From Leptolyngbya sp. 'hensonii' (GTDB lineage Bacteria > Cyanobacteriota > Cyanobacteriia > GCF-001939115): a stretch of DNA of 64,000 nucleotides. Below, piece by piece: positions 34,672 through 38,064 of the stretch. The notes beneath the pieces are model-generated. The model made no database searches and was not told the DNA's origin. It worked only from the letters and a program-made list of their open reading frames with translations. The position numbers and the translations under genes are program-made. Location: NCBI RefSeq assembly GCF_001939115.1, contig NZ_MQTZ01000046.1, positions 62,001-126,000 of the forward strand. The letters are read 5' to 3'. Each line of letters begins with the position of its first letter. Within the stretch, counting starts at the first letter, position 1.

Positions 34672-34980
34672 ATGCCGATTGCAGTTGGCATGATTGAGAC
34701 TAGAGGGTTCCCTGCTGTTGTAGAAGCAGCGGATGCAATGGTGAAAGCCGCTCGGGTCACCCTGGTCGGTTATGAGAAGATCGGAAGCGGTCGGGTGACC
34801 GTTATTGTCCGGGGGGACGTTTCTGAGGTTCAAGCTTCGGTGGCCGCCGGTATTGAGTCTGTGAAGCGGGTCAACGGGGGCGAAGTTCTCTCCACCCATA
34901 TCATTGCCCGTCCTCACGAGAACCTGGAGTATGTGTTACCGATGAGTTACACCGAGGCTGTAGAACAGTTCCGGACCTAA
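34672..34980 (+). CDS. ccmK2: carboxysome shell hexamer protein CcmK2
   Basis: A 102-residue single BMC-domain protein that forms hexameric shell tiles. Canonical sequence throughout: [51 protein letters not shown] with the KIGSGR pore loop, then [19 protein letters not shown]. It is about 92 percent identical to the next gene (8 differences in 102). The short C-terminus and first position suggest CcmK2, as in the Synechocystis order K2-K1-L-M-N. Confidence 0.97.
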
Positions 34981-35881: not shown

Positions 35882-36045
35882 AGAGCTTTCTGGGGGAGCA
35901 GTTTTCTGCTCTGGAAAAGCCATCTAGCGGCAGGCCAGCTGCGGATTTGATGGCCGATCGTTCACTTAGCTATTCCGGGCTCTTTTTGCCCTGCTCCCTC
36001 AGCTTGCTGTCGCAGCAACATCGTTTTCATCAGGAGAGGTTTTTT

Positions 36046-38064
36046 ATGGTAGTCCGCAGCTCTGCGGCCCCCCCTACTCCCTGGTCTACCAGTCTGGCCC
36101 AACCAACCATTCATGAAACAGCCTATGTGCATGCCTTCTCTAACATCATTGGTGATGTCCGAATTGGCTCAAATGTTCTGATTGCACCGGGAACCTCAAT
36201 TCGAGCAGATGAGGGGAACCCATTTCATGTTGGTGCAGGAACGAACATTCAAGATGGGGTGGTAATTCACGGTCTGGAACAGGGTCGGGTATTAGGAGAC
36301 GATCAAAATCAGTACTCTGTCTGGATTGGCAGTAATACATCGATTACCCATAAGGCATTGATTCATGGCCCCGCCTACATTGGGAACGATTGCTTCATTG
36401 GTTTCCGATCGACCGTCTTCAATGCCCGCATTGGCCATGGTTGTATCGTCATGATGCACGTTCTGATCCAGGATGTGGAAATTCCGGCAGGGCGCTATGT
36501 GCCTTCCGGAGCCGTGATTACAACACAGCAACAGGCCGATCGTTTGCCAGAAGTAGATCCAGAGGATCTCAATTTTGCCCGTCATGTCGTCGGGATTAAT
36601 GAGGCTCTGCGATCCGGGTATCAATGTGCTGAGAATGTGGCCTGTATCCGATCGATTCGAGAAGAGACGGTACAAGAAACGTCTGGTTACACCCCTTATG
36701 GGTCCAGTGGAGACAGTTATAGCCCCTACAAATCAACCAATGGTTCTGGAAGTCATGATCACCAGGAGTCAACAATGCGACTGAGTACAAATATTCTGCA
36801 GCAAGTGCGCCAACTGCTGGCAGGCGGTTACCGGATTGGCACTGAACATATCGATGAGCGACGCTTCCGCACAAATTCCTGGAAGAGCTGCCAACCTTTC
36901 TCATCCACCCGTGAGGCAGAGGTCGTTTCAGCTCTTGAATCCTGCTTGCAGGAACATTCCGGTGAATATGTCCGGCTGTTCGGGATTGCCCAGGGACGAC
37001 AACGGGTGGGAGAAACGATTATTCAACGGCCTGGTGATCAGCCGATTAGCGAAAGCACGACAACCTATCGTCCCAGTAATAGCTCTAATGGGCAGGTCAC
37101 CTCTGGGGGGGGTGGGTCAGTCAGTGGGGATCTGCAACAACAGGTGCAGCAACTGCTGAATCAAGGGTACTACCTGGCGGTAGAATATGCCAACCAGCGA
37201 CAGTATCGGGCCAATGCCTGGAAGAGTGGTCCGGCCATTCATACCAGCCGGGTGGGAGAGGCAATGGGCACCCTGCAGTCTTTTCTGGCAGAGCATCGTG
37301 GTGAGTATGTGCGCCTGATTGGCGGCGATCCAAAAGCCAAACGACGGGTCTCAGAAACGTTGATCCAGACACCGGACGGCCAAGTTGCATTCAGCAGTGG
37401 TTCTAGTTCAGTCACAGGTGGCAGTGCTGCAGTCCGATCCACCGCAGGCAATGCAGTTAGCTCAGATTTACAGCAGCAAGTGCAGCAGTTACTGAATCAG
37501 GGATTCTACCTGGCAGTGGAATATGCCAACCAGCGGCAATATCGGGCCAATGCCTGGAAGAGTGGTCCATCCATCCATACCAGCCACTTAGGGGAAGCCA
37601 TGAGCACCCTGCAATCTTTCCTGACAGAGCATAGTGGCGAGTATGTGCGTCTGATTGGCGGTGATCCGAAGGCCAAACGGCGGGTCTCAGAAGTGCTGAT
37701 TCAAAGTCCGAATGGGCAACCCGTTGCTGGCAATGGTCAGACAGCCCCCGCCTACAGTACTCCTGCCCCCAGCAGCGCCCCTGCCACGTCAGGCACAAAA
37801 CTGACGAGTGAAACCTTGCAGCAAATTCGCCAACTACTGGCTCAGGGGCATCGGATTGGAACGGAATACGCCAATCCCCGCCAGTATAAAGCCAGTTCCT
37901 GGAAGAGTGGCGCAACGATTCAGGCCAATCGGGAGTCAGAGGTCATTGCCGCCCTGGAAAATTTCCTGGCTGAACATGATGGGGAATATGTGCGGTTAAT
38001 TGGAATTGAACCCAAGGCCAAACGGCGGGTTTTAGAATCCATGATCCAGCAGCCCAAGCGCTAG
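36046..38064 (+). CDS. ccmM: carboxysome core organiser and gamma-carbonic anhydrase CcmM, four SSUL repeats
   Basis: A 672-residue CcmM starting at the ATG at 36046 with AGGAGAGG 6 bp upstream; a longer in-frame start at 35947 lacks such a site. Residues 1-210 form a left-handed beta-helix gamma-carbonic anhydrase. The zinc histidines are at positions 75, 102 and 107 ([15 protein letters not shown]), and a C-terminal Cys194...Cys200 pair ([10 protein letters not shown]) matches the disulfide needed for activity in Thermosynechococcus CcmM. After a linker come four RbcS-like SSUL modules starting near 246, 361, 473 and 585. SSUL2 and 3 are about 88 percent identical. Only SSUL1 keeps a Cys pair (WKSC, LESC). 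Confidence 0.98.
36764..36777 (+). promoter_or_regulatory. internal ribosome site and start for short CcmM
   Basis: AGGAG at 36764-36768 stands 6 nt before an in-frame ATG at 36775 (Met244), right before SSUL1 ([15 protein letters not shown]). Translation from here gives 429 residues with only the four SSUL modules, corresponding to the M35 short form that in other beta-cyanobacteria links RuBisCO. The spacing is ideal. Confidence 0.75.

Follow-up and report, generated by a model that had tools for sequence, protein, structure and literature searches.

A probable internal translation start ahead of the first SSUL module of ccmM in Leptolyngbya sp. 'hensonii'

The ccmM gene and the domains of its product

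The window, i.e. the whole stretch of 64,000 nucleotides of Leptolyngbya sp. 'hensonii' that was analyzed, carries a beta-carboxysome cluster on its forward strand, composed of two BMC shell genes, ccmL, ccmM, ccmN and ccmO. The BMC genes beside ccmM are located at 34672 and 35228, the former being assigned by similarity to the latter, and the remaining neighbours are a EutN/CcmL gene (35579), a hexapeptide CcmN-like gene (38077) and a double-BMC CcmO-like gene (38764). The ccmM gene, whose frame extends from ATG 36046 to a stop codon at 38062-38064, is a member of a ccmKLMNO-type cluster. Genes assigned by inspection to NDH-1 subunits of the CO2-uptake type are found upstream of the cluster on the reverse strand. 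Features of ccmM are listed in Table 1.

Table 1. Features of ccmM, in window coordinates. Energies refer to predicted Shine-Dalgarno pairing.
Feature	Position	Strand	Properties	Basis
Shine-Dalgarno-like AGGAGAGG of full-length ccmM	36032..36039	+	6 nt before ATG; -7.4 kcal/mol	sequence
Full-length ccmM	36046..38064	+	672 aa, 72.9 kDa	sequence; CcmM crystal structures 3KWC and 7O4Z matched
Gamma-carbonic-anhydrase-like trimerisation domain	36046..36654	+	residues 1-203
Internal Shine-Dalgarno-like AGGAG	36764..36768	+	-6.9 kcal/mol	sequence
Short-form CcmM ORF from Met244	36775..38064	+	429 aa, 46.8 kDa, predicted pI 9.5
SSUL1	36787..37038	+	residues 248-331; Cys282-Cys300 pair	closest solved modules 6HBA, 9FWV
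SSUL2	37126..37380	+	residues 361-445; without cysteine pair
SSUL3	37462..37716	+	residues 473-557; without cysteine pair
SSUL4	37807..38061	+	residues 588-672; without cysteine pair

The N-terminal part of the protein (residues 1-207) matches 3KWC with an E value of 9e-107, indicating a gamma-carbonic-anhydrase (gamma-CA)-like left-handed beta-helix. This structure, from CcmM of Thermosynechococcus elongatus BP-1, is the closest solved gamma-CA domain, although the crystallized construct comprises the gamma-CA part only whereas the protein described here also has SSUL modules. His75, His102, His107, Cys194 and Cys200 are all present and, since the histidine ligands and Cys194/Cys200 (numbered as in the active Thermosynechococcus enzyme) are kept, the domain may be an active anhydrase. 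In contrast, the gamma-CA domain of Synechocystis has been reported to be inactive (PMC5472144). A long linker rich in Ser, Gly and Asn leads to four stretches matching the Pfam RuBisCO_small family (E 6e-64), for which the closest solved modules are 6HBA, 9FWV and 6MR1; the number of SSUL modules in CcmM proteins is known to range from three to five (PMC7059596). The two cysteines of SSUL1 are spaced by 18 residues, as in other CcmM modules, and a pair restricted to the first of four modules (C---) was found in 10 of 132 ccmM genes. The pattern of paired modules differs widely across these 132 genes (CC-, C-C, CC--, --CC, C---), and redox control may be distributed differently among lineages.

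The probable start at Met244 and its conservation

A previous reading of the sequence alone had placed an AGGAG motif 6 nt ahead of Met244 and proposed that it gives rise to a short form of 429 residues with four SSUL modules. Both points were confirmed: AGGAG at 36764-36768 is followed by the spacer TCAACA and by ATG 36775, which is in frame with ccmM and corresponds to Met244 since (36775-36046)/3 = 243, while the length of the ORF and the four Pfam stretches agree with the predicted product. An in-frame start codon and a Shine-Dalgarno (SD) sequence thus lie directly ahead of SSUL1, as expected for an M35-type start. Among the 99 internal in-frame ATGs of 13 ORFs of the window, from which codon usage and the internal-ATG null were also derived, Met244 is the only one with AGGAG at a suitable spacing. 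A crude score adding SD pairing to the cost of opening the mRNA gave 2.95 for Met244, rank 2 of 99, as compared to 6.8 for the start of ccmM itself, and Met244 performs better than 10 of the 13 gene starts. RNA folding gave no indication of a structured control element, the region around the internal start folding in an ordinary manner (z 0.69 to 0.85).

The strength of the SD sequence was not retained as a proof in its own right. When the codons for DHQEST were resampled synonymously with local codon usage, 30% of the draws contained an SD of equal strength, and two further ATGs, located inside SSUL2 and SSUL3 (GEAM motif), are preceded by SD-like sequence of -6 kcal/mol or lower. The case for an internal start therefore rests on position and conservation; AGGAG by itself carries less weight than it was given when the site was first described as clear. 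These two observations also speak for the main rival explanation, namely that AGGAG and ATG are a coding coincidence within a low-complexity linker (His-Gln-Glu-Ser-Thr-Met) and that full-length CcmM alone is made.

Conservation was analyzed in a set of 133 different ccmM genes, from which clustering at 75% identity retained 63 representatives; the family-level search recovered the genome under study only, and the comparison was thus made with more distant relatives. Of the 63 representatives, 41 have an in-frame ATG in the 16 codons ahead of SSUL1, versus 5 of 156 equivalent segments (2/63 before SSUL2, 2/62 before SSUL3 and 1/31 before SSUL4), so that the position of the start is kept in relatives beyond equivalent positions. 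An ATG combined with an SD of -4.5 kcal/mol or better was found in 13/63 cases before SSUL1 versus 0/156 (Fisher p 3.5e-8), and allowing GTG as well led to 22 SD sites before SSUL1 versus 3 before the other modules (p 6.7e-11), these p values being guides only as the representatives remain related. The contrast between SSUL1 and SSUL2-4 persisted at all clustering thresholds tried. In ten of the 63 representatives, this segment lacks both ATG and GTG. In Microcoleus/Tychonema relatives (e.g. L041, L042, L045), the best candidate before SSUL1 is a TTG with weak pairing, and no SD-matched ATG or GTG was observed there.

The nearest relatives by tree and sequence (L012, L020, L035 and L036) all keep the ATG, with little or no SD, a feature that would fit a coincidence. 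L020 retains the peptide HQESTM, but with AAGAG (-2.4 kcal/mol), pairing reaches -3.4 kcal/mol at the ATG of L012, and the ATGs of L035 and L036 show almost zero SD pairing. About 19 changes in SD presence were counted on the 63-gene tree, which was built rapidly and in which few branches are well supported. Since cyanobacterial genes often start without an SD, its absence is not a proof that the short form is absent.

In Nostocales, the segment ahead of SSUL1 suggests selection acting on the nucleotides. The site GAA AGG AGT xxx GAx GTG occurs in nearly all of 31 ccmM genes, the putative start being a GTG with AAGGAG (e.g. L059, L061, L143) and the encoded peptide Glu-Arg-Ser-Ser/Asn/Asp-Glu/Asp-Val. 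The arginine codon is AGG in 31/31 genes versus 4.5% of the other Arg codons of the same genes, and the valine codon is GTG in 31/31 versus 21% elsewhere in them; the 31 genes have a common ancestry and are not independent. These invariant codons are what selection on a ribosome-binding site and a start codon would leave, and represent a clean case inside a coding sequence. Conservation at the nucleotide level in Nostocales and the strong enrichment of start codons before SSUL1, which is not seen before SSUL2-4, both argue against a coincidence, as does the requirement of S. elongatus for both CcmM forms (Long 2010, as cited in PMC7059596 and PMC13332109), so that we regard this explanation as improbable. 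Still less probable is a short form that arises without internal initiation on the long mRNA, either through proteolytic cleavage in the linker or through a second transcript starting within ccmM: the long Ser/Gly/Asn-rich linker and the additional CcmM band of about 30 kDa, of unclear origin, seen in Fremyella besides M58 and M35 (PMC5784247) would be compatible with it, but proteolysis would need neither a start codon and SD beside SSUL1 nor the AGG/GTG codon choice, and a crude scan found no promoter-like site within ccmM. Taken together, the enrichment before SSUL1, the Nostocales codons and the pairing and opening score make internal initiation the best reading, and translation of ccmM very probably also starts at ATG 36775, yielding a four-SSUL short form.

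A single-SSUL CcmM and other carboxysome-related genes of the genome

Outside the window, the same genome encodes a second CcmM of 315 aa, made of a gamma-CA domain with its metal-ligand histidines kept and of one SSUL (L149:9072-10019, corresponding to G000:C18:53071-54018). Its neighbours are CobW/COG0523 GTPase genes, a NicO-type transporter, a cysteinyl-tRNA synthetase (CysS) and a FUR-family regulator, and the cluster, which is of a zinc-starvation type, also contains second copies of HisI and HemB. A perfect TGATAATCATTATCA palindrome, which we take to be the consensus of cyanobacterial Zur sites, lies 8 bases before the ATG of the single-SSUL gene, and two more near matches were noticed before a COG0523 gene and between hemB and the FUR gene. 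Allowing up to 3 mismatches gave five matches versus 0.7 expected. Single-SSUL CcmM proteins were found in four of about 390 genomes, the other three being L150:7077-8048 (G003), L151:6150-7067 (G021) and G316:C1:2643021-2643911. In G003, hisI is directly upstream of the gene and overlaps it; in G021, the neighbours have no zinc link. Paralogues of HisI, gamma-CA, HemB and CysRS were described in proteobacterial Zur regulons by Haas et al. 2009, who do not mention CcmM (PMC2770081). A reasonable guess would be that the single-SSUL CcmM is a carbonic anhydrase or scaffold targeted to Rubisco or the carboxysome under zinc starvation; our literature search found no paper proposing a low-zinc role for it.

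The genome also contains a 436-residue open frame with one SSUL at its end (L003, G000:C67:13059-13385), which is probably a Rubisco-activase-like ALC protein. About 1.5 kb from it lies a beta-carbonic anhydrase gene (L116), one of four in this genome.

Predicted roles of the two forms and comparison with known CcmM proteins

In characterized carboxysomes, full-length CcmM trimers join Rubisco, partner proteins and the shell, and the extra SSULs supplied by the short form cross-link Rubisco (PMC8580825, PMC13332109). By homology, both forms are expected to accumulate here with these roles. Initiation at 36046 would produce the trimeric scaffold, with its gamma-CA domain and four SSUL modules, linking Rubisco with the shell and partner proteins, while ribosomes loading on AGGAG would produce the 429-residue chain, which would be the counterpart of S. 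elongatus M35 and Synechocystis CcmM48 and would cross-link Rubisco in the condensate. With the internal start lying ahead of SSUL1, the redox-responsive module would be part of both forms, and the short form, in which SSUL1 is the only module with a cysteine pair, could retain redox control. Substantial synthesis of the short form, as first suggested from the sequence, is plausible since in SD pairing and predicted accessibility the internal site is no worse than the start of ccmM itself and since the short form outnumbers the long one in S. elongatus, with 730 versus 112 copies per carboxysome (PMC11973430).

The further proposal that the internal site tunes RuBisCO condensation could not be sustained, as one genome is insufficient for this and SD strength varies widely over the 63-gene tree. 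In S. elongatus and Synechocystis, the ratio between the two CcmM forms drops at high CO2 (PMC13332109). Across cyanobacteria, the start codon ahead of SSUL1 persists but the strength of its SD turns over quickly, which leads us to the speculative and rather doubtful idea that lineages set the short-to-long ratio, and hence the fluidity or size of the condensate, by altering a single internal ribosome-binding site along with their SSUL number. The present analysis contributes a further clear example of this well-known type of internal start and provides a comparative view, over 63 diverse genes, of its location and of the variation of its SD. It would also be of use for the transfer of ccmM to other hosts, as the short form can be lost or newly created when the gene is recoded.

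The M58/M35 pair of Synechococcus elongatus PCC 7942 shares the architecture described here, a gamma-CA-like domain followed by SSULs with an internal start just before SSUL1. As a positive control, our scan was applied to an S. elongatus-type genome with a 95% identical gamma-CA domain and identified a GTG with GAGG located 324 codons from the end. M35 presumably covers residues 216-539, i.e. 324 residues, and the scan thus appears to recover its known start. In agreement with the initial reading, the short form predicted here is larger than the three-module M35, with 429 codons as compared to 324. The two systems differ in the number of modules (three in S. elongatus, four here), in the start codon and SD (GTG and GAGG versus ATG and AGGAG) and in the cysteine pairs, which are found in SSUL1 and SSUL2 of S. 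elongatus (PMC8580825) and in SSUL1 only here.

A four-module form does not stand out as special, since four is the commonest number of SSULs in 30 sampled genomes (20/30, versus three in 9/30 and five in 1/30). The CcmM of Synechocystis likewise has a four-SSUL architecture. In Synechocystis sp. PCC 6803, CcmM73 and CcmM48 have been detected by immunoblot (PMC13332109), and their sizes, measured there, match the 72.9 and 46.8 kDa predicted here. It is established that a single transcript gives rise to both CcmM forms owing to an internal ribosome-binding site (PMC8580825, PMC5784247, PMC13249358), and the internal start at Met244 is a local instance of this well-known arrangement, very probably real but ordinary.
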